This document shows positions 5,838 through 63,736 of a stretch of 64,000 nt of DNA, one piece after another. This DNA comes from Nisaea sediminum. GTDB lineage: Bacteria; Pseudomonadota; Alphaproteobacteria; Thalassobaculales; Thalassobaculaceae. The notes under the pieces were generated by a model. The model saw only the letters and a program-made list of their open reading frames with translations. It searched no databases and was not told the origin of the DNA. Position numbers and translations under genes: made by a program. How positions within the stretch are numbered: the first letter of the stretch is position 1; every line of letters begins with the position of its first letter. The stretch is taken from NCBI RefSeq assembly GCF_014904705.1, contig NZ_JACZCQ010000001.1, forward strand, positions 372,001 to 436,000, in the 5' to 3' direction.

Positions 5838-7537
5838 TTTCGACTTCTAACACGGTCGCGCAATGTTCGCGCGGCAAGCCATGGTCCCAGCGCGCATAGC
5901 GCAACCAGGTGAGGATAAGCGGGTGAAAAATACAGCAAATTCAGACCGGGGATAGACGTTACGTCGAGAAAGCAGATCAACGCCGTGCGCATCGCGACAG
6001 CGATGCCAAGGGACAGGACGAGGACTCCGAGCGGGTCCCGCAACCATTTCCAGCCGAAGGCAAGAACTCCGGCAACGGTGATCAGCAGGCCTGCCGCGAT
6101 CAGATAGTTGTAGGTGCGGGCCAGCAGACTGAGGAGGTCTGCCGTCTTTGCCGCCGCCTTCTCCCGAAACGTCGTTTCAGGGCGGTCCGAACTGGTGGCG
6201 GCTCCGGTCGCCTCCTGCATCACCTCGGAGCCCGGCGGGCTCGCCGGAACGCCGATTTTCGTCTGCGGCCGCTCCGGGTTGCCGATATCGAGTACCTTGA
6301 GCAGTAGGTCCGGCATCCGTTCAAGCGCATCCGAAAGATAGTGTAGCCGGAAGGGCGGCATCATCGTGTTCCGCGGTGCGAGGCATTGCAGGCGGCCGTC
6401 ATCGCAGGCGGCATTTATTTCCATCGCCAGCCGCTCGAAATAGGCCTCCGTCTCCGGTGCGGACCGGTAATGCCCCGCTGCCCTGGCCGCGTCCCGGAGG
6501 GCCCACATGAACCATCCCGCCGGGATCTCGCTGCATGAGCCATGGTCGCCGGGGATATTGCAGGCAATCTGCGCCCAGCCTTTTCCTTCGGTCTCGAAAT
6601 AGGGTTTCAGCTCGCGGGCCGCGGGGCTGACCTCGTATGCCTGTCGCAGGGTTTCCTGGGGCACCACGATGCGGCGGCGCCACTCTTTCTGCGCTATGCG
6701 GTTCAGGGCGCCATAGGCGGAGACGAATTGGCTCGCGCGGAATTCGTTGTTCCGGAACACACCGTAGGCCGCGTAGTTCACCGCATTCACCGCGAGAATC
6801 ACCGCGCCGAAACAGGTGAGAGCGAGGGCAATCCGGAGCAGTGGAAGGCGTTTGACGAGTGCTCGCAAACCGCCGCGCCATGAGGTGGTCAGACCCAGAT
6901 AGGCGACGACCGGGAATAGGGCGGGCAGCAGCCATATCCCTTCTTCGCGCGTCAGCCAGTAGATCCCGGCACAGAGGCCGAGCGCGGCGGCTTTCAGATA
7001 TCCCGATGCAGGGGAAGCCGATCCGGTGTCCGCCGTGGTCGGCAGGAATGCGGAGAGAAATCCAGCGAAGAGCAGCAGAGAGAGGCTCGCATAGAGCGGT
7101 TCCCGGACAATCCGCGCCAGATCGGTCGTCCAGAAGACCGGGGCGAACAGGAGCAGGGCGAAGAGAATGAAAAGAAGCAGGTCACTCCGGATCAGCCTCC
7201 GCAGAACGAGGCAGAAAATCGTCACCGAGCCGGTGTAAAGCAAAGCCTCCGCGGCACGCAGGGGCAGCCCGATCTCCCGCATGGCGGCGATGAAGACGGG
7301 GAAAGCCGCTCCCTTGGCTAGTGTGAGATGGTCGTAGGGGCCGAGCCAGGCGCCGTCCCGAATAGAGAGCGCGAGCCGGACAAAGAGGGCATCGTCATGA
7401 ATCGCCTCGGGGATCAGGTAGGACGGCCACAGAAATCCGACGGCGATCCGTACCGCGGCCAACATAGCCGCGGCGGCCAGCAAGATCCGTGAGGGAAGGG
7501 GCAGGTTCCCGAAAGCGCGCCGGACCGGGTCGGTCAT
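5834..7537 (-). CDS. Polytopic membrane protein, possible GT-C-like glycosyltransferase
   Basis: About 567 residues. I see an N-terminal hydrophobic block of several helices (residues about 15-260), a soluble stretch of about 200 residues with scattered Cys, then about three helices near the C-terminus. The layout (many helices plus a periplasmic domain, in operon with GT2 and GtrA) is that of enzymes that use a lipid-linked sugar on the periplasmic face. No diagnostic GT39/GT83 motif was recognised, so the function is by context only. The frame is open to an upstream ATG at 7654; the start at 7537 (MTDPVRRA) is preferred because membrane segments begin soon after it and GTGGA precedes it. 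Confidence 0.65.
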   Translation of the reverse strand: MTDPVRRAFGNLPLPSRILLAAAAMLAAVRIAVGFLWPSYLIPEAIHDDALFVRLALSIRDGAWLGPYDHLTLAKGAAFPVFIAAMREIGLPLRAAEALLYTGSVTIFCLVLRRLIRSDLLLFILFALLLFAPVFWTTDLARIVREPLYASLSLLLFAGFLSAFLPTTADTGSASPASGYLKAAALGLCAGIYWLTREEGIWLLPALFPVVAYLGLTTSWRGGLRALVKRLPLLRIALALTCFGAVILAVNAVNYAAYGVFRNNEFRASQFVSAYGALNRIAQKEWRRRIVVPQETLRQAYEVSPAARELKPYFETEGKGWAQIACNIPGDHGSCSEIPAGWFMWALRDAARAAGHYRSAPETEAYFERLAMEINAACDDGRLQCLAPRNTMMPPFRLHYLSDALERMPDLLLKVLDIGNPERPQTKIGVPASPPGSEVMQEATGAATSSDRPETTFREKAAAKTADLLSLLARTYNYLIAAGLLITVAGVLAFGWKWLRDPLGVLVLSLGIAVAMRTALICFLDVTSIPGLNLLYFSPAYPHLVALCALGPWLAARTLRDRVRSRK

Positions 7538-7700
7538 TCCACGATGGGCAAGTCCGCTATCTGGGTCGACCTGTCGGATGGGATGAGCTGCCAATGGTTC
7601 AGACCGGTAATTGTTCCGGCCGCTATTGAGCGAGCCCGGGAAAAGCGACCGCAAACCTGCCGGATACCCCAGGATTGATCAAGTTTCGGGTTCCCGGCGG

Positions 7701-8867
7701 TTAGGAAAAGACCGCCTTCAGCTTGTAGCGCGGGATCGGATGGTCCCAGTCGCCACCCTCCATCAGGCGCGCGGCGGCATAGCCCCAATCGTCCGATCCT
7801 TTGGCGCCCTTGCCGTTGCCGCAGATCGCGATCGCGAGATGGTCGCCCGCGACGAAGTCGATATAGGGCAGGCCGGAGGTGCTGTAGCTGGTCACGCAGG
7901 TATCGGTATGACGCTCCGGACAGTCCTTCAGGACGGGAATCAGCCGCTCGACCACATCGGTGAATTCCAGCCTGTTGCGCTCCGATCCGGCGGATTTGAA
8001 CCAGGCGTCGAGCTCCTCGCGTGAGCCGAGCTGGGTGTCCGCCTCGGTACCGATCCCGATCTTCACGTAGGAATGTCCGTCCGGATAGCGGATCGGCGGC
8101 AGGATGTAGGAACCGGCGAACTTGTCGATGATGGTCGGCATGTGCTCGAGCACCTCGGCTGCGGCGTCGGTGACGCGAAACAGTACGACCGTGCGGGCAT
8201 AGACCCTGGTCGACACCGGCCGCGGCAGCAGCTTGCAGGCGGTGGTGTAGCCGCCGGTTGCGATCAGCACCCGTTCGGCTTCGAGGATACGGCCGTCATC
8301 CAGGGTGACATCGACGCTCGACCCCTTGACGTCGATCGCCGTGACCGTCGATCGGATCACCTCGGCACCGTTCTTCTCCGCCAGGGCCGTCTGCGCCTTG
8401 ACCAACGCGCGCGGACTGATGTGACCCGCGGTCTCGGTTTCCCGGATCCCGGCGCAATCGTTCGGCAGCGAGAGGAACGGATAGAGTTCGCGCATCACGG
8501 TCGCGTCTATGACTGTGGTGTTGCCGCCATTCTCCCGCGCCAGCGTGACCGCCGGTTTTGTAGTCACATCTTCCGAGCCGACGATGCCGAGGAAACCGCT
8601 CGGGGTGAAGAAATCGATCCCGCTTTCGGCTTCGATCTCCGGATAGCGCGCGATCGCGCGGGTCGCCGTGAGCGACCATTCCGGCTCAGGATCGTAGATC
8701 CGGGTCAGCCGCCCTTCGTCGTAGTGGCTGGCAAAAACGCCATCATGGGACAGCCGGTCCGCCGGCTCGTCCGGGCCGATCACGGCGACCCCGTCCTGCC
8801 AGGACGAGAGATGGCGTGCTGCTGCGGAGCCGATCAGGCCGCGGCCGACGATGATATGGCGGTACAT
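7701..8867 (-). CDS. FAD-dependent oxidoreductase (DAO family, sarcosine/N-methyl amino acid oxidase-like)
   Basis: A 388-residue flavoprotein with an N-terminal FAD-binding loop GRGLIGSAAARHL and a second nucleotide-contacting strand RVLIATGGYTT near residue 205. The C-terminal TSYSTSGLPYIDF and GNGKGAKGSDDWG segments match the monomeric sarcosine oxidase / N-methyl-tryptophan oxidase (MSOX/MTOX) layout. The reaction would be oxidative deamination or demethylation of an amino acid or amine with O2. A canonical MSOX flavin-attachment Cys was not assigned, and the substrate is unknown. The gene stands alone with divergent small-gene and intergenic sequence upstream. Confidence 0.85.
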   Translation of the reverse strand: MYRHIIVGRGLIGSAAARHLSSWQDGVAVIGPDEPADRLSHDGVFASHYDEGRLTRIYDPEPEWSLTATRAIARYPEIEAESGIDFFTPSGFLGIVGSEDVTTKPAVTLARENGGNTTVIDATVMRELYPFLSLPNDCAGIRETETAGHISPRALVKAQTALAEKNGAEVIRSTVTAIDVKGSSVDVTLDDGRILEAERVLIATGGYTTACKLLPRPVSTRVYARTVVLFRVTDAAAEVLEHMPTIIDKFAGSYILPPIRYPDGHSYVKIGIGTEADTQLGSREELDAWFKSAGSERNRLEFTDVVERLIPVLKDCPERHTDTCVTSYSTSGLPYIDFVAGDHLAIAICGNGKGAKGSDDWGYAAARLMEGGDWDHPIPRYKLKAVFS

Positions 8868-8990
8868 GAGAGACGCTCCGGAAGATGAACCGGGCAGAGC
8901 CTAATCCCGATCCGGCAGCGCATCCAGTCCGAGCGCCCGCATCCCGTGAACAGCAGGTGAAAAAATCTGACGGTCACGCCGCCGCGACGG

Positions 8991-12045: not shown

Positions 12046-12873
12046 ATGGCAGTAGTGAATTCAGTGCGGACAAATCCGGGCGCATTGTCGGCGCTCCGTG
12101 CCCTTAATGGGATCAACCGCAAATCCGCGACGATACAGGACAGGGTGTCGACTGGTCTCAAGGTGACCGGCGCGGAAGGCGGTGCGTCCAATTTCGCGAT
12201 CGCGCAGGGACTAAGGGCGGAACTCACTGCGTACAGGGCGTTGAACCAGGGGCTGCGCACGGCGCTCGGCGTGGTCAAGGTCGGGATTGCTGCGGCGACG
12301 GGCGTCTCGGATGTGCTCACCGAGATGCGCGGCAAATCCGTGCAGGGGCGGAACGCGGGACTGACCGCGCAGCAGCGGAGTATCGTCGCCAACGACTTCC
12401 TTGCTCTTCGCGATCAGTTCGACAGGCTGGTTTCGAACGCGAAATTCAACGAGAAGAACCTGATCGTTACCGGATCTTCTTCCATGACGGTCCTCACCAA
12501 TATCGCCGGGGGGACTGTCACGATCGACAATTACGAGCTCAGCGCGATCACGCTGCAGTTCGGACTGGTTGATGCAAATCTCGACACTGTCTCCAATGCC
12601 GAAGCCGCAGACGGATATGTCGTCGATGCTCTCTTTACGGTCGCCACGGCGCTCGCGGGACTTGCCGAGTCCGCACGCTTCATCGAGTCCCAGATAGGGT
12701 TCAACGAATCTCTTTCGGATGCGACGGAAGAGGGGCTTGGCAACATCGTGGATGCCGATCTTGCACGTGACTCGGCTCGGCTGACTGCCTTGCAGGTCCA
12801 GCAGCAGCTCTCCGTACAGACCTTGGGAATCGCCACCCAGAGGCCGAACTCTCTTCTTTCTTTGTTTTCCTAG
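12046..12873 (+). CDS. Flagellin (divergent minor copy)
   Basis: A 275-residue flagellin. The N-terminal D0/D1 stretch (SALRALNGINRKS, DRVSTGLKVTGAEGGASNFAIAQG) and the C-terminal one (NIVDADLARDSARLTALQVQQQL, quoted in parts) match the second flagellin at 62909-63736 along the same length. The variable D2/D3 domain is essentially absent, giving a short alphaproteobacterial flagellin. Changes from its partner include GAEGG in place of GALDD and RGKSVQGRN in the first helical domain. It sits 50 kb from the motility island in a metabolic neighbourhood with a weak ribosome site (GGACGGT), so it is probably a minor or conditional filament subunit. Confidence 0.93.
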   Translation: MAVVNSVRTNPGALSALRALNGINRKSATIQDRVSTGLKVTGAEGGASNFAIAQGLRAELTAYRALNQGLRTALGVVKVGIAAATGVSDVLTEMRGKSVQGRNAGLTAQQRSIVANDFLALRDQFDRLVSNAKFNEKNLIVTGSSSMTVLTNIAGGTVTIDNYELSAITLQFGLVDANLDTVSNAEAADGYVVDALFTVATALAGLAESARFIESQIGFNESLSDATEEGLGNIVDADLARDSARLTALQVQQQLSVQTLGIATQRPNSLLSLFS

Positions 12874-41134: not shown

Positions 41135-41857
41135 TTATTCGGCCGGCTCCTTGACCTTCTTGCTCTGCGACGCGGTCTCGGCTTCCGGATCGCGCAACAC
41201 ATAGCCGCGGCCCCACACCGTTTCGATGTAGTTGGCACCGCCGGTCGCCTTCGAGAGCTTTTTCCGCAGCTTGCAGACGAACACGTCGATGATCTTCAGT
41301 TCGGGTTCGTCGATGCCGCCATAGAGATGGTTCAGGAACATCTCCTTGGTCAGCGTCGTGCCCTTGCGCAGGGAGAGCAGTTCGAGGATCGCGAATTCCT
41401 TGCCGGTGAGGTGGACCGGCTTGCCGTCGACCTCGGCGCTCCGGGTCGTGAGATTGACCGAAATCGGCCCGGTCTCGATGACCGAGTCGGAGTGGCCTTT
41501 AGAACGGCGGATGATCGCCTGCATCCGGGCGATCAGCTCGCGCCGGTCGAACGGCTTGGTGAGATAATCGTCGGCACCGAATCCGAGGCCTTTGATCTTG
41601 TTGTCCATTTCGGACAGGCCGGAGAGAATCAGGATCGGCGTCTCGACCTTCGAGCTGCGCAGACGGCGGAGGACCTCATACCCGTCGAGGTCCGGCAGCA
41701 TCAGGTCGAGCAGGATGATGTCGTAATCGTACAGGCGGCCGATTTCCAGACCGTCCTCTCCGTGCTCGGTAACGTCGACGACAAAACCTTCGGACTTCAG
41801 CATCAGTTCGATGCTTTGCGCGGTCGCGGTATCGTCTTCTACCAGGAGTACTCGCAT
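41135..41857 (-). CDS. ctrA: Cell-cycle/motility response regulator CtrA
   Basis: A 240-residue OmpR/PhoB-class regulator. The receiver has E7/D8/D9, phospho-acceptor D51 in [15 protein letters not shown] (same position as Caulobacter CtrA) and Lys in YLTKPFD. The winged-helix domain has [17 protein letters not shown] and [14 protein letters not shown]. CtrA controls flagellar and other genes by binding TTAA-N7-TTAA. In Rhodospirillales it is linked mainly to motility rather than viability. A TTAA-N7-TTTA candidate lies 48 bases upstream. Its phosphodonor ChpT and its inhibitor SciP are also in this window. The C-terminal tail differs from the Caulobacter AA degron: it ends PAE. Confidence 0.96.
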
Positions 41858-54121: not shown

Positions 54122-55807
54122 TCAGCCGCCGCCGGTATTGCCGGCTTCCTGATACATCCAGTTGCGGATGATCGCCACGGCCTCTTCCGGATGTTTCTCG
54201 ACGATTTCACCGATCTTCTTCAGCGAGGAGGCGCGGACGCGTCCCTCGACCTGGTTGATGTCGATCATCTGGTCGAGAAGGCTTTCCTCCTCGTCGTCGC
54301 TTTCCAGCAACTCCGCCATGTCGGCGGTCGCGCCCGGGCCGGTCAATTGTGCGATCGCATCGGCCCCGCCGATCGCGCCAACGCCGCCGCTGGCGGCCAG
54401 CGTGGTCGGCATGGATTCGAAGAGGCGGGTGAGAACCGGGCGCACGACCAGCAGGATAACGAGCAGGCCGACCACGGCGAGGACCAGAACTTCGGCAAGC
54501 TGCAGGAACTCGTCCTTGGAGATGCCGAACAGGAGGGATCCGTCATCGAGGTCGAGCGGCTCGAGCTTGACGAATTGCATGTTGACGACTTCGACGGTGT
54601 CTCCGCGCGTGCCGTTGTAACCGACGGCGGAGCGCACGAGGGTCGCGATCTGCTCCAGTTCTTCCGGCGTGCGCGGCTGATAGACCTTGTCGCCTTCCTC
54701 GTTCTCGACATAGCGGCCATCGACCAGGACGGCGACCGACAGGTTCTGGATCTCGCCCGCTTCCTTGACGCGGTTGCGGACGGTCCGGCTGATCTCGAAG
54801 TTGACGGTTTCCTCGCTACGCGAGGATTCCGAAAGCGCGGAAAGATCTCCGGCACCGGCATTGGCCTGGGCTTCCGGCAGGTTGTTCTCGACCGAGACCG
54901 TGTCCTGCTTGTTCCGTTCCTGGGAGCTTTCGTTTTCTGAGATGGTCTGTGTCGAGCGGGCGACCTGGCTGTCCGGATCGTAGATTTCCGACTGTTCCGT
55001 GAACCGGTCGTAATCGATCTCCGCGCTGACTTCCGCGCGGACGCGGCCAAGACCGACGATGCGTTCGACCAGTTCCTCCACAGAGCCGCGCAGGCGGTTC
55101 TCGAAGGCGAGGCGCATTTCCTCGGAGCTCTGGCCCGGAAGCGCGCCGTCTTCCTCGGACGTGCCGCGCGCGAGGAGCTGGCCCCGGCTGTCGAGGATGG
55201 AAATGTTCTGCGGGTCCATTTCCGGAACCGCTGCGGCCACGAGGTGCTGGATCGCGAGGACCTGTTCGCGGCCGAGGCGGCCGGCGCCCTGGACCTGGAG
55301 AACGACGGAAGCGCTCGGCTTGCGGCGCTCGCGGCTGAACAGTTCGCGTTGCGGCAGCACGAGATGAACGCGCGCGCCGCGGACATTGTTCATCGCCCCG
55401 ATGGTGCGGGCGAGCTCGCCTTCGAGGGCGCGCACCAGATTGACGTTCTGCACGAAGTTGGTGGTGCCGAGACCGTCCGACTTGTCGAAGATCTCGTAGC
55501 CCATCGTGCCGCCGCCGGGGACGCCCTGTTCGGCGAGAGCCACCCGCAGTTTCAGCACTTCGTCGCCGGGCACGTAGACCTGTTGGCCGCCGGCCTTAAG
55601 CTCGTACTCGATGTTGCGGGATTCGAGTTCCTTGACGATCGCGCCGCTATCCGCCGGATCGAGGTCGCCATACAGCAGCGCCATCCCTCCGGTCGACAGA
55701 CGCGAGGCAAGGAAGATGAAGAAGCCCAGCACGGCGACCGCTGTGCCGACCAGGGCGGCGATGCGGATGGGGCCGAGATTTCGAAGCAAGTCGACGAGAG
55801 GATTCAT
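54122..55807 (-). CDS. fliF: Flagellar MS-ring protein FliF
   Basis: A 561-residue MS-ring protein with two membrane helices (near residues 18-38 and 435-455) flanking the large periplasmic ring-building part. Hallmarks: ALLYGDLDPADSGAIVKELE near 50, a VRALEGELARTIGAM segment and VHLVLPQRELFSRER near 145. The C-terminal cytosolic helix (VEKHPEEAVAIIRNWMYQE) is the FliG-binding tail. It is first of a leftward cluster. In most relatives fliG follows fliF, but here fliH follows after 46 bases and fliG is absent. Confidence 0.96.
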   Translation of the reverse strand: MNPLVDLLRNLGPIRIAALVGTAVAVLGFFIFLASRLSTGGMALLYGDLDPADSGAIVKELESRNIEYELKAGGQQVYVPGDEVLKLRVALAEQGVPGGGTMGYEIFDKSDGLGTTNFVQNVNLVRALEGELARTIGAMNNVRGARVHLVLPQRELFSRERRKPSASVVLQVQGAGRLGREQVLAIQHLVAAAVPEMDPQNISILDSRGQLLARGTSEEDGALPGQSSEEMRLAFENRLRGSVEELVERIVGLGRVRAEVSAEIDYDRFTEQSEIYDPDSQVARSTQTISENESSQERNKQDTVSVENNLPEAQANAGAGDLSALSESSRSEETVNFEISRTVRNRVKEAGEIQNLSVAVLVDGRYVENEEGDKVYQPRTPEELEQIATLVRSAVGYNGTRGDTVEVVNMQFVKLEPLDLDDGSLLFGISKDEFLQLAEVLVLAVVGLLVILLVVRPVLTRLFESMPTTLAASGGVGAIGGADAIAQLTGPGATADMAELLESDDEEESLLDQMIDINQVEGRVRASSLKKIGEIVEKHPEEAVAIIRNWMYQEAGNTGGG

Positions 55808-56074
55808 GGGTTAAGACCCTTGCTGTTGCGCGCAGCTGGTGCCCGGATGTTGCCCCGGGCGACTCTCACAATTAGATTGCATTTTAGACATATCTTATGA
55901 AAATTGAAAGAGTCCTCTCGGCAAAAAATGCCTAGTGACTATATCCGAGTGTGAATCGAAAGAGAACAATTAATTAGCGGCGATACTTGTGGTATTGGTT
56001 AAAGGAATGTTTCTGCGTTGATCCAACAAAGGGCCAATCTTAGAATCACCCACCGGGGTGACGGAGAAATTCTC

Positions 56075-57670
56075 ATGGTGCGGCAATCGGCGACCCAAGG
56101 TCAGTCTGACAATGGCGTGAATCCGAAATCGGGAGAGCGTGCGGAGGCAGGGTCATTTCAGGGGATGTTGGATGTCTCCCGGACACGGCACCGTAAGTTG
56201 AATAGTCAAGCCGTAGAAATGCTCAATGCCTCCGAGTGGGAGAAAGCGCGGAAGATTTTCATGCAGGTCCTCGATGAGAACGAGGAGGACGCGACGGCTC
56301 TGCATGGTGTCGGCATTGTTGCCCGCAAGATGGGGCGTCTTGAGGTCGCCCGTGAGCTGATGCAGCGTGCGCTCAAATTTGAGCCTCGCAATCACATGAT
56401 CATGAGCAATCTGGGTGTGGTCCAGGAGGATCTGAAAGATTACGAGGGGGCGCTCAAGAGTTTCCGCGCCGCTGCGCGCGCGGCGCCAAAAGTTCCAGAA
56501 TACCATGTTAACCAAGCGAGCGTGCTCTCCAAGATGAACCGGCGATCTGAGGCATTGATCGCAAATCGCAAGGCATTCGAACTGGGTATCCGGAAAGCGG
56601 AACCGTTGACCAACTTGGGTGTCATGCTGGCCGACATCGGTGATTTCGCGCAGGCGGAAAAATATTTTCGCAAGGCGCTGGAGATCGATCCTGAAAACGC
56701 CCACGCCCACCATAACTTCGGTACGGTCCTGCTGCGGCAAGGTCGCTGGGATGAAGCTTGGTTCCACTCGGAATGGCGAATGGCCGGATCGACGTTTTTG
56801 CCGGAGAGCAAAGCTAAGCGTGCCTTTGCTCAACCGCTTTGGAATGGCAACCCATTTCATGGCGCCCGTCTGTTTCTCTATGCGGAGCAGGGGATTGGGG
56901 ATGAGATCCGTTTTGCGAGCATGATTCCAGAGGCTATCGCGCGTGGCGGAGAGGTCGTGGTCGAGTGCGAACGCCGGCTCGTCACGCTGTTTCAACGCTC
57001 CTTTCCAGAGACCAGAGTCGTTCCGGCAAATTATTGGCCTGCCGAGCGAGGGGTCGAACCTTTCGATATCGTTTTGCCGTTCGGATCGCTCGGGCGCTTG
57101 TTCCGTACGAGCCAGGACGCGTTTCCGGAACATTCGGGCTATATCAAGCCGGATCTGGCACTTGTCGCGGAATTCAGAGATCGTCTCAAGGCCGCAGGAC
57201 CGGGACCATATGTGGGGCTTTGCTGGCGAAGCGGCCTCTCCGGAGCGTATCGTAACGAGTATTACGCTGCGATCGAGGACATGGCGCCGATCCTGAAGGT
57301 CAAAGGTGTGACCTTCGTGAACCTGCAATATGACGCTACTGCTGACGAATTGGAGGCGGCGCATAATATTTCGGGAGTAGATCTCGTCCGTTGGGACGAT
57401 GTCGATCTCAAGATGGATCTGGAAAAGGCCGCGGCCTTGACCAGTTGTATGGACTTGGTCGTCAGCCCGGCCACGTCGGTCTCCGTCATGGCCGGAGCGA
57501 TTGGCATCGAGACGCTTGAATTCCGACCGTTTCCGGTTGCCGATACATATTTCCGCAAAGGCCGCTGCACCTGGTTCCCGAGCGTGCGCTACGTCGCGAA
57601 GCGGCAATCGGAGAAATGGAATAAGGTGCTTCGGAAGATTGCCGGGGAAGTCGCGGCTCTCCCTGACTAG
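56075..57670 (+). CDS. TPR protein with glycosyltransferase-like C-terminal domain (possible flagellin glycosyltransferase, FlmG-like)
   Basis: A 531-residue protein. Residues about 40-235 hold several TPR repeats (for example AEKYFRKALEIDPENAHAHH). Residues about 250-530 form a GT-B-like domain with LFLYAEQGIGDEIRFASMIP, VGLCWRSG and VVSPATSVSVMAGAIG, as in TPR proteins with GT9/heptosyltransferase-like ends. FlmG of Caulobacter has the same layout and glycosylates flagellin. Its place between fliF and sciP, beside hook and flagellin genes, supports that role; it remains inference. Start at 56075 (MVRQSAT) is chosen for GACGGAGAAA before the ATG. Confidence 0.78.
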   Translation: MVRQSATQGQSDNGVNPKSGERAEAGSFQGMLDVSRTRHRKLNSQAVEMLNASEWEKARKIFMQVLDENEEDATALHGVGIVARKMGRLEVARELMQRALKFEPRNHMIMSNLGVVQEDLKDYEGALKSFRAAARAAPKVPEYHVNQASVLSKMNRRSEALIANRKAFELGIRKAEPLTNLGVMLADIGDFAQAEKYFRKALEIDPENAHAHHNFGTVLLRQGRWDEAWFHSEWRMAGSTFLPESKAKRAFAQPLWNGNPFHGARLFLYAEQGIGDEIRFASMIPEAIARGGEVVVECERRLVTLFQRSFPETRVVPANYWPAERGVEPFDIVLPFGSLGRLFRTSQDAFPEHSGYIKPDLALVAEFRDRLKAAGPGPYVGLCWRSGLSGAYRNEYYAAIEDMAPILKVKGVTFVNLQYDATADELEAAHNISGVDLVRWDDVDLKMDLEKAAALTSCMDLVVSPATSVSVMAGAIGIETLEFRPFPVADTYFRKGRCTWFPSVRYVAKRQSEKWNKVLRKIAGEVAALPD

Positions 57671-57679
57671 AGGGCTCTC

Positions 57680-57991
57680 TCAGGCTCCTCCATGGCGCCG
57701 CGACGCGCGCCTGTAGTCCTGGATACGTGTGGCGCGAAGGGCGCGAGTCCCGTGGACCTTGATGAGTTCCCGCCAGTTCGAAAACTCCTCGTGGCTCAGG
57801 CTGTAGCGTTCGCAGGCCTGTTCTAGCGTGATGGTGCCGTCCTCGACGGCCCGAACGACTTGCGCTTTCCGGCTCACGACCCATCGTTTCGTGTTGGCTG
57901 GCGGAAGGCCGGCGAAGGCGGCACCGTCGGCGTCGGCTTCTGCGGGTTCGTGTTGCGCCGCCATTTTCTCAATGTTCTCGTCTGCGGACAT
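57680..57991 (-). CDS. sciP: CtrA inhibitory protein SciP (DUF1153)
   Basis: A 103-residue protein that matches DUF1153/SciP: RWVVSRKAQVVRAVEDG, then LEQACERYSLSHEEFSNW and ALRATRIQDYRR. The helix-turn-helix-like core is as in Caulobacter SciP (93 residues), which binds CtrA and blocks recruitment of RNA polymerase. The start at 57991 has only a GAAGAG before it. An AGGAGG lies further upstream (near 58040) without a suitable start codon, so the true start is uncertain by about 30 codons. It is convergent with the TPR gene. Confidence 0.87.
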   Translation of the reverse strand: MSADENIEKMAAQHEPAEADADGAAFAGLPPANTKRWVVSRKAQVVRAVEDGTITLEQACERYSLSHEEFSNWRELIKVHGTRALRATRIQDYRRASRRHGGA

Positions 57992-58091
57992 CTCTTCAAT
58001 GCATGCTGAAATGCTGATGAACCGAGAATAAGTGCTGCCTCCTAAGGAATAGTTAAAATGCGATCTTTCTCGCGAAGGAGACATTTGCGGT

Positions 58092-58156: not shown

Positions 58157-59461
58157 CTACCGCTTGATGCGGATGATCTCGTCCAGCAATTCGTCGCCTG
58201 TGGTGATAATCCGGGTCGATGCCGAATAGGCGCGCTGGGTGATGATCAGATCGGTGAACTCTGTCGCGATATCGGTGGTGGAGTTCTCCAGCGAGCCGGA
58301 CTGGATACGGCCGGTACCGCCGCTGGTCGGGGTGCTGAGAACGATGTCACCGGACGTTGAGGTCACGCGGTATGCGTTACCGTTCACCGAATCAAGCTGC
58401 GTTGCTGACGGTACGGTGCCGATCGGCAACCTGTAGATGTTCCGCGATTGTCCGTTGGCGAAGTTTGCCGAGACCAATCCATCTTCCGATATCGAGACTC
58501 CGATCAGCGCGGATGGCCCTGAACCATCTTGGTTCAATAGCGAGGTTTCGAATTCCCCGTCAAACTGCGACATTCCTGTTGGTTGTCCGTAAGTCCCCCA
58601 GTTGATCGTGATCGTCGCGTTTTCGACCGTCCGGCCGAAATCGGCGGCGTTAATCGTCAGGGTTTCCGTTGCTGCCTGGTTCGTAGTGCCGCTTGCGCCG
58701 GCAACTGCAAGCAGACTGCCGTCGGGGTTGAAGACCATTGTCTGCGTGGTACCGATGACGGTTGCGACCGCGCTGACGGTCCCCGGATTGCGGACCAGCT
58801 GGTAGGCATAGGTCCAGGTGTTGTCGGCTGCTGCCTTTGTCCAGGTTGTTTCGAGCAAATAGTCGAAGCCCTGCGAGTCATAAATCGTGATGTTCGTGAC
58901 AGCCGTCGTGCCGGTCGAGGCTCCCGCCGGGAGGTTGGCGTTGATGGAGACATCATCTGTCGCGTTCGCGATCTGGCCGAACTGGGAAAGGTCGACCGTC
59001 TCGAGGCTGGTCAGCAGGTCGCGCGTGTCCTGGTTGACGATGTTGCCGGTCACGTCGGTTCGCCAGCCCTGAAGGTAGTAACCGGCGGTGTTCACCAGAC
59101 GGCCGTTCTCGTCGGTGTTGAAGGCGCCGGCCCGGGTCAACAGATATTCGTCGTCGGACCCTGGATTGGACGCTTCGTTGACAACGAAGAAGCCATTACC
59201 GTCGACGGCAATGTCGGTGGTGCTGTTGGTCGCTTGCAGCAGGCCCTGGCGTTCCGGGTTCGTAAGCGGTTTCGCCTGCACGCCGCCCGGGGTGAAAGCC
59301 GTCGCGGTGGGGCTGCGGGTCACAAGCGTCTGGAAACGCGCGTTTGTTTCCTTGTAGCCGACCGTCTGCGAGTTGGCGATGTTGTCGGAAATAATACCGA
59401 ACGCGGTAGCCTGAGCGCCGATCGACGCCACGCCCGCGAAAAGTCCGCCGGTAACACTCAT
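58157..59461 (-). CDS. flgE: Flagellar hook protein FlgE
   Basis: A 434-residue hook protein. The N-terminal rod/hook helix SVTGGLFAGVASIGAQATAFGIISDNIANSQT (quoted only in part) is the flg_bb_rod start, and the C-terminal ENSTTDIATEFTDLIITQR...STRIITTGDELLDE is the matching end. GNGFFVVNE and LTRAGAFNTDENGRLVNTAGYYLQGW lie in the middle. GGAGGACTAG precedes the ATG. It is last of three genes in the hook operon. Confidence 0.96.
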   Translation of the reverse strand: MSVTGGLFAGVASIGAQATAFGIISDNIANSQTVGYKETNARFQTLVTRSPTATAFTPGGVQAKPLTNPERQGLLQATNSTTDIAVDGNGFFVVNEASNPGSDDEYLLTRAGAFNTDENGRLVNTAGYYLQGWRTDVTGNIVNQDTRDLLTSLETVDLSQFGQIANATDDVSINANLPAGASTGTTAVTNITIYDSQGFDYLLETTWTKAAADNTWTYAYQLVRNPGTVSAVATVIGTTQTMVFNPDGSLLAVAGASGTTNQAATETLTINAADFGRTVENATITINWGTYGQPTGMSQFDGEFETSLLNQDGSGPSALIGVSISEDGLVSANFANGQSRNIYRLPIGTVPSATQLDSVNGNAYRVTSTSGDIVLSTPTSGGTGRIQSGSLENSTTDIATEFTDLIITQRAYSASTRIITTGDELLDEIIRIKR

Positions 59462-62908: not shown

Positions 62909-63736
62909 ATGGCTATCCAAAACTCTGTTCTGACCAACCCGTCGTCCTTCGTTGCCCTTCGTACCCTGAACGGCATCAACCGCAGCCTCGACACCACGCA
63001 GAACCGTGTCTCCACGGGCCTGAAGGTCGCCGGCGCTCTCGACGACGCGTCCAACTTCGCCATCGCGCAGGGTATCCGGGCCGAACTGAAGGCTATCGAT
63101 GCGGTTACCCAGGGTCTGAACAACGCCAAGGGTATCGGCAAGGTTGCGATCGCCGGTGTGACCGGAGTTTCCAACCTCCTGTCCGACATCCGCGGCAAGC
63201 TGACCGAACTGGCCAACGAAGGCATCACCACCGCGCAGCGTGACATTCTCGAGGCCGACTTCAACGAGTTGATCTCGCAGGCGGCGAACTTCATCGCCAA
63301 CGCGTCGTTCAACGGTGTGAACCTGATCAATTCCGGCGCCACTTCCGTCAACACGCTGTCGAACCTGGCCGGTGGCCTGCTCACACTGACCTCTCAGAGC
63401 GCGGTCAACACGCAGGTCGGCACCATCGCGACGGCGACGCTTACCTCTGCGACCAACGCGCAGAGCGTGATCGCCAACCAGTTCTCCAACCTCGAGTCCG
63501 TCGTGAACACTGCTCTCGGCGCGCTTGGTGCGGAGGTCCGTGCCCTGAACCTGCAGACGACGTTCCTGGAAGAGATCCGGGATGCGACCGACGAAGGTCT
63601 CGGCAACATCGTCGATGCCGACCTGGCTCGCGAGTCTGCTCGCCTCACCTCCCTGCAGGTGCAGCAGCAGCTGTCGACCCAGACGCTCAGCATCGCCAAC
63701 CAGCGCCCGCAGACCCTGCTTGGTCTGTTCGGCTAA
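62909..63736 (+). CDS. Flagellin (main copy)
   Basis: A 275-residue flagellin with D0/D1 domains only: FVALRTLNGINRSLDTTQNRVSTGLKVAG at the start and NIVDADLARESARLTSLQVQQQL at the end (given in part). The D2/D3 region is absent, so the filament would be built from a compact subunit. GAGGACTTTATACC precedes the ATG. It is next to the hook operon, has a structured leader and its own terminator, and its codon choice is strongly biased, all fitting the major filament protein. The paralogue is at 12046-12873. Confidence 0.96.
   Translation: MAIQNSVLTNPSSFVALRTLNGINRSLDTTQNRVSTGLKVAGALDDASNFAIAQGIRAELKAIDAVTQGLNNAKGIGKVAIAGVTGVSNLLSDIRGKLTELANEGITTAQRDILEADFNELISQAANFIANASFNGVNLINSGATSVNTLSNLAGGLLTLTSQSAVNTQVGTIATATLTSATNAQSVIANQFSNLESVVNTALGALGAEVRALNLQTTFLEEIRDATDEGLGNIVDADLARESARLTSLQVQQQLSTQTLSIANQRPQTLLGLFG

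Follow-up and report, generated by a model that had tools for sequence, protein, structure and literature searches.

Does the gene that lies between fliF and sciP in the motility island of Nisaea sediminum encode an enzyme that glycosylates flagellin? How cytoplasmic O-glycosylation achieves its specificity is poorly understood. Among flagellin enzymes of the TPR-glycosyltransferase (TPR-GT) type, the literature we searched offers only one that has been characterised: FlmG (CCNA_01524), the flagellin O-glycosyltransferase of Caulobacter crescentus (PMC7591256). An earlier note on this DNA had proposed a FlmG-like role for the Nisaea protein on account of its layout and location. Here, we follow up this proposal in the window, a stretch of 64,000 nucleotides (G000:C1:372001-436000) from a genome of 5.02 Mb, and in related genomes. 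The explanation that best fits our results, to which we give a probability of a little over one half, is a cytoplasmic O-glycosyltransferase of the FlmG kind, with TPRs and a GT9-like domain, which would be expressed early and would modify a flagellar export substrate, most likely flagellin.

A TPR array joined to a GT9-like glycosyltransferase domain

The gene (Table 1) begins at an ATG that, together with a GGAG sequence about 9 nt upstream (GGGG in one case), keeps its position in five Nisaea genomes while the surrounding DNA does not, and this start is therefore favoured over an alternative in-frame TTG at 56018. No signal peptide was evident when the N-terminus was inspected by eye, and residues 1-31 are disordered in the AF2 model, which suggests a cytoplasmic protein. 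An Rfam scan of the window between 52 and 64 kb returned no match.

Table 1. Features of the fliF-sciP region, in window coordinates.
Feature	Position	Strand	Basis and remarks
fliF (MS-ring), divergent neighbour	54122..55807	-	ORF position, conserved flagellar gene order, naming in the earlier note
Putative divergent promoter block, fliF/TPR-GT	55870..56003	.	80.6% identical columns in five Nisaea genomes; promoter role suggested by position
CGGCAAAAAATGCCTAG box; GGCAAAAATTTCCTA at the same place in Thalassobaculum-group genomes	55919..55935	+	Intergenic alignments
TPR-glycosyltransferase CDS	56075..57670	+	531 aa, ATG start; start and ribosome-binding site kept in five Nisaea genomes
TPR domain, residues 34-238, about six TPRs, Asn ladder N112/N146/N180/N214	56174..56788	+	Pfam, model, Asn spacing and conservation
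GT-B domain, GT9/FlmG-like, residues 260-531	56852..57667	+	Family motifs, model, fold search, hhalign
EQGIGDE motif, E271-E277	56885..56905	+	G and D invariant in 50 TPR-GTs; D276 over WaaF GD; putative catalytic base
WRS motif, W384-S386	57224..57232	+	W invariant in family; proposed donor contact
SPATSV, S464-V469, GT9-like C-terminal loop	57464..57481	+	Alignments; predicted donor loop
sciP (CtrA inhibitor), convergent neighbour	57680..58084	-	NF051866, PF06627
flgE (hook protein), neighbour common to all orthologues inspected	58157..59461	-	Named from sequence and gene order
Flagellin, first of downstream flagellin-flbT-flaF cluster, possible substrate	62909..63736	+	PF00669/PF00700

When run on the whole protein, Pfam finds the TPRs (PF07719, E 2.8e-26) and no glycosyltransferase domain; its GT9 model (PF01075) stays below threshold, with E 0.072 and 12.8 bits against a gathering score of 22, and reaches E values down to 5.5e-9 in relatives. 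The AF2 model built from 13 orthologues (pLDDT 85, pTM 0.79) contains 12 TPR-like helices between residues 34 and 232, or about six TPRs, followed by a GT-B domain. Since this first model matched O-GlcNAc transferase and SPINDLY (GT41) mainly through the TPRs and the overall layout, the GT domain was folded separately from 50 relatives (pLDDT 93, pTM 0.91). Its nearest solved folds are all GT9 enzymes: 3tov from Veillonella (Z 18.0), WaaF (1psw, 16.8), the protein heptosyltransferase TibC (4rb4, 16.2) and WaaC (15.6). Plant NDH-PSI chains come next (7wff, 9grx and 7f9o, Z 13.9-14.8), and the remaining GT-B-like proteins score below 12. The GT41 enzymes thus share the TPR plus GT-B layout and are the best whole-model Foldseek matches, but the Nisaea GT domain is GT9-like, with a bacterial OGT homologue scoring only about 9 compared with 15-18 for GT9. 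The GT9 enzymes in turn share the fold and a GD motif in the first loop; they are only 9-13% identical and lack a TPR array, and an ADP-heptose donor is not indicated for the Nisaea protein. The earlier reading of the open reading frame, as TPRs followed by a GT-B/heptosyltransferase-like C-terminus, is borne out by the gene itself, the PF07719 match and the GT9 folds.

Across 50 TPR-GTs the G and D of EQGxGDE, one W (in WRS) and one D are invariant; the Nisaea protein has them all, and the family motifs are intact in 13 of 13 aligned orthologues. The aspartate of the GD motif is the catalytic base of GT9 enzymes, and in a weak HMM profile alignment to WaaF the GD of the TPR-GT falls over VGD. 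Matches to fructose-bisphosphatase in the profile comparison were at chance level and were set aside. The four asparagines of the TPR domain are spaced at exactly 34 residues; N112 and N146 are invariant and N180 is almost invariant. Such a chain of four arose in 0.04% of shuffles. In OGT, the corresponding Asn ladder binds the acceptor backbone.

It might be argued that the GT domain is catalytically dead and that the protein works as a TPR-based chaperone or as a regulator in flagellar assembly: no activity is known for it, and the pairing of TPRs with a flagellar locus could mean a chaperone role. Against this, every orthologue retains EQGxGDE, WRS and the C-terminal donor loop, and conservation is higher in the GT half than in the TPR half; we regard a non-catalytic role as highly improbable.

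The gene keeps its flagellar neighbours across genera

Within the genus, the orthologues have 61-65% identity, a value that falls to 37-45% elsewhere in Thalassobaculaceae. Protein identity to the closest named relatives, N. nitritireducens, N. denitrificans and a Nisaea MAG, is 64-66%, the same as for the same-genus genomes G001-G004. The placement between fliF and sciP described in the earlier note is not peculiar to this strain. The gene adjoins flgE in 15 Thalassobaculaceae genomes, one copy being truncated, and most of these also keep fliF and sciP as neighbours, so that orthologues with the same surroundings occur in Nisaea and in Thalassobaculum-group genomes, including the frame-disturbed copy of G024. 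In G018 and G025, flgE is present and fliF and sciP were undetected beside the gene. In BAL199 (L035/L162) the GT half alone was found, next to sciP and flgE; unrelated ORFs, one of them sulfotransferase-like by eye, occupy the place of the TPR half. A species-level genome collection returned 78 loci, among which only those of Thalassobaculaceae show the flgE or sciP-flgE arrangement. For SciP, the NCBIfam model NF051866 gives 103.1 bits, above its cut-off of 100.

Flagellin genes are found in 15 of 15 family genomes with the TPR-GT and in 14 of 21 without it, a comparison of samples that are not independent, and flagellated Thalassobaculaceae without the TPR-GT exist. The N. sediminum genome has seven flagellin-type genes. 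One of its flagellin genes (12046-12873) stands alone, with roughly 50 kb between it and the main flagellin cluster.

A conserved intergenic block is shared with fliF

The 267 bp between fliF and the TPR-GT gene contain a conserved block of 134 bp that occurs once in the genome. In five Nisaea genomes, 80.6% of its columns are identical, compared with 45-52% in the TPR-GT coding sequence, 76% where fliF begins and 11-40% in the flanking intergenic DNA. The Thalassobaculum group retains GGCAAAAATTTCCTA and AATTAG at the corresponding place. From its position, we infer that the block is a shared fliF/TPR-GT promoter. Scans of the intergenic region for CtrA and sigma-54 consensus sites gave nothing convincing. 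In Caulobacter, CtrA activates flmG and SciP represses it (PMC7591256); in the Nisaea window CtrA is encoded at 41138-41857, and sciP adjoins the TPR-GT gene. We also weighed a box upstream of fliK (62605) as a possible shared regulatory site, but abandoned it since it is not conserved in G003.

These observations bear on two further readings. The first assigns the enzyme a non-flagellar protein or a surface polysaccharide as acceptor and treats its location in the island as incidental, as might be suggested by other paralogues that lie away from flagellar genes on contigs with NeuB-family genes. However, the gene holds its position from genus to genus, conservation is higher in the shared intergenic block than in the coding sequence, and the Asn ladder argues for a peptide ligand, so that we consider this very unlikely.

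The second is that the enzyme acts on an early flagellar export substrate other than flagellin, with the hook protein FlgE as the likeliest. FlgE deserves serious consideration, given that its gene is the constant neighbour of the TPR-GT: it is the only one common to all orthologues, and it persists in G018 and G025 where fliF and sciP were not detected. The conserved intergenic region is shared with fliF, an early gene, and the flagellin cluster already has TPR-GTs of its own (see below). Yet only about 5 kb separate the TPR-GT gene from the flagellin genes of the island, and the adjacency to flgE may consequently be plain synteny. Furthermore, export of Caulobacter FlgE is independent of the pseudaminic acid pathway (PMC7591256), and the titles and abstracts of the literature searched contained no precedent for a glycosylated hook. 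Taken together, we judge a hook substrate possible, if on the unlikely side.

The GT domain is homologous to that of FlmG but groups in another clade of the tree

Caulobacter FlmG was located through a FljK search in the family of genome G098 and by synteny; the best agreement between the FljK query and those genomes is 88%, and the assignment to Caulobacter is based on the FljK match together with the 596-aa length and the PseH-like, flbT and flaF neighbours. In these six-frame genomes, the Caulobacter-genus FlmG is 596 aa long, as published, and is flanked by a PseH-family acetyltransferase (FlmH), flbT, flaF and flagellins.

The Nisaea TPR-GT matches FlmG with a BLASTP E value of 2e-61 (29% identity over 552 columns). 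A profile comparison of the C-terminal part with FlmG, the check that the earlier note had proposed, identifies the two GT domains as full-length homologues (hhalign probability 100, E 5.5e-69), and FlmG has the highest score of the groups compared (465, followed by 420 for the flaF-adjacent and 401 for the pseI-adjacent group). The FlmG-like layout noted earlier is thus upheld, with N-terminal TPRs, a C-terminal GT-B domain of common descent and intact motifs. The TPR domain, which is shorter than that of FlmG, scores 145.5 against FlmG and 151.0 against a TPR-only control; it carries no detectable FlmG-specific signal, and flagellin is accordingly not singled out as the substrate.

In a careful tree of GT domains, from which five long-branch paralogues were excluded, the fliF-sciP clade (14 rows, 100/100) is separate from the FlmG clade (100/99). 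Forcing both into one clade cost 6.9 log units and was not quite rejected (AU p = 0.052), while uniting FlmG with the flaF-adjacent clade was rejected (AU p = 0.013). The TPR-GT is therefore of the same kind as FlmG, with strict orthology unsupported. Both belong to flagellar loci with ctrA and sciP genes nearby, but FlmG sits at flbT-flaF-flagellin-flmH and the Nisaea enzyme at fliF-sciP-flgE, its genome having several paralogues, some of them at the flbT-flaF place.

The idea of FlmG-type flagellin glycosylation thus survives in part. It agrees with the GT homology, the motifs and the position in the island, and sits less well with the separate FlmG clade, the TPR comparison, the presence of two paralogues closer to flagellin, flbT and flaF, and the flagellated Thalassobaculaceae that do without the gene. 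Flagellin as the substrate of this particular enzyme is a guess, though a reasonable one.

Paralogues and the donor sugar

The genome encodes about 14 TPR-GT paralogues. Just to the right of the window, the flagellin cluster (L052, G000:C1:434500-449500) runs flagellin, flagellin, flbT, flaF, TPR-GT, flagellin, flaF2, TPR-GT, flgK, flgL. The flaF2 gene is a second flaF-like gene, and the cluster also encodes a TPR-only protein. Its two TPR-GTs (L052:3517-5472 and 6982-8943) share architecture, motifs and motility island with the fliF-adjacent enzyme; they differ from it in belonging to other clades, in being longer (651 and 653 aa) and in lying beside flbT, flaF, flagellin and flgK, and they are better-placed candidates for flagellin glycosylation. 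On contig 5 (L053/L193, G000:C5:104000-123500), three tandem TPR-GTs directly adjoin pseI and pseG, forming a pseudaminic acid module that apparently has dedicated transferases. Further divergent members were also seen: five at L055-L056 (G000:C14:40-64 kb), on a contig that has a second NeuB-family gene (C14:7874), and a divergent TPR-GT frame at L057 (G000:C1:110000-116000) that adjoins a TPR protein with, by eye, a possible oxygenase domain.

The earlier note had observed that the window contains no pseudaminic acid genes, and on that ground had invoked a different sugar. The window ORFs scanned do not contradict the observation, which is nonetheless misleading, since PseI, PseB and PseG are all encoded elsewhere in the assembly, with PseI (480 bits, cut-off 340) and PseB (516, cut-off 408) above their curated cut-offs. 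At the scale of the genome the argument for another sugar fails. Equally, pseudaminic acid should not be assumed as the donor, because G035 has an orthologue of the TPR-GT, as well as three flagellin-cluster TPR-GTs, and no NeuB-family synthase was found in it at 97% completeness.

The fliF-adjacent enzyme could also add a second or alternative sugar, or serve one minor flagellin, leaving the main transfer of pseudaminic acid to the pse-linked and flaF-adjacent TPR-GTs. The three TPR-GTs beside pseI, the number of flagellin-type genes and the gene complement of G035 are consistent with this division. On the other hand, G035 is a draft assembly in which a lone absence may be a gap, and donor specificity cannot be revealed by sequence; we think such a division quite unlikely.

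Maf flagellin glycosyltransferases resemble the TPR-GT in function, namely cytoplasmic flagellin O-glycosylation, and differ in architecture. PF01973 (Maf) had no match in the genome, although the absence of Maf is only indicated by this, as the model matched only in archaea among the controls. Relatives of the TPR-GT adjoin flagellin genes in Azospirillum, whose flagellins are glycosylated (PMC12826043), and in Planctomycetota and Gemmatimonadota. In Azospirillum (L124, L128, L132, L136, L147, L155 and others), a long flagellin-matching ORF is followed by flbT and by TPR-GT ORFs of great length (4-6 kb), which look like fusions of several GT modules. Outside Alphaproteobacteria, TPR-GT genes near flagellin genes were seen in Planctomycetota (L143, L161, L170, L181), Gemmatimonadota (L169) and Desulfuromusa (L185).

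Discussion

The anatomy and context of the gene make an O-glycosyltransferase of a flagellar protein well supported, and by analogy flagellin would be the likeliest acceptor. In our proposed mechanism, the TPR superhelix would grip a segment of the flagellar export substrate and offer a Ser/Thr to the GT-B cleft, where D276 would act as the base and a nucleotide sugar as the donor. The enzyme would be made together with fliF from the shared early promoter and so might be ready before its substrate is exported. That substrate would be one or more of the seven flagellins, modified alongside the two flagellin-cluster paralogues, with labour perhaps divided among the TPR-GTs by flagellin, site or sugar.

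A more speculative extension, and an improbable one at present, is that an early glycosyltransferase co-expressed with fliF acts, ahead of filament assembly, on the hook protein or on some other rod-hook substrate, beside the separate TPR-GTs for flagellin. If true, a single organelle would be glycosylated stage by stage by paralogous enzymes.

Under our preferred reading, the Nisaea TPR-GT belongs to the FlmG kind and represents an apparently separate lineage, marked by a conserved place in the island and a putative promoter region shared with fliF. The paralogue set of this genome is unusually rich: six of its TPR-GTs are flagellar or pse-linked (one adjacent to fliF, two in the flagellin cluster and three adjacent to pseI). 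Together, these six enzymes provide a natural series for how TPR arrays pick acceptors and GT domains pick sugars, and since a conserved clade goes with fliF and flgE, the idea that flagellar parts other than flagellin are glycosylated becomes open to test.
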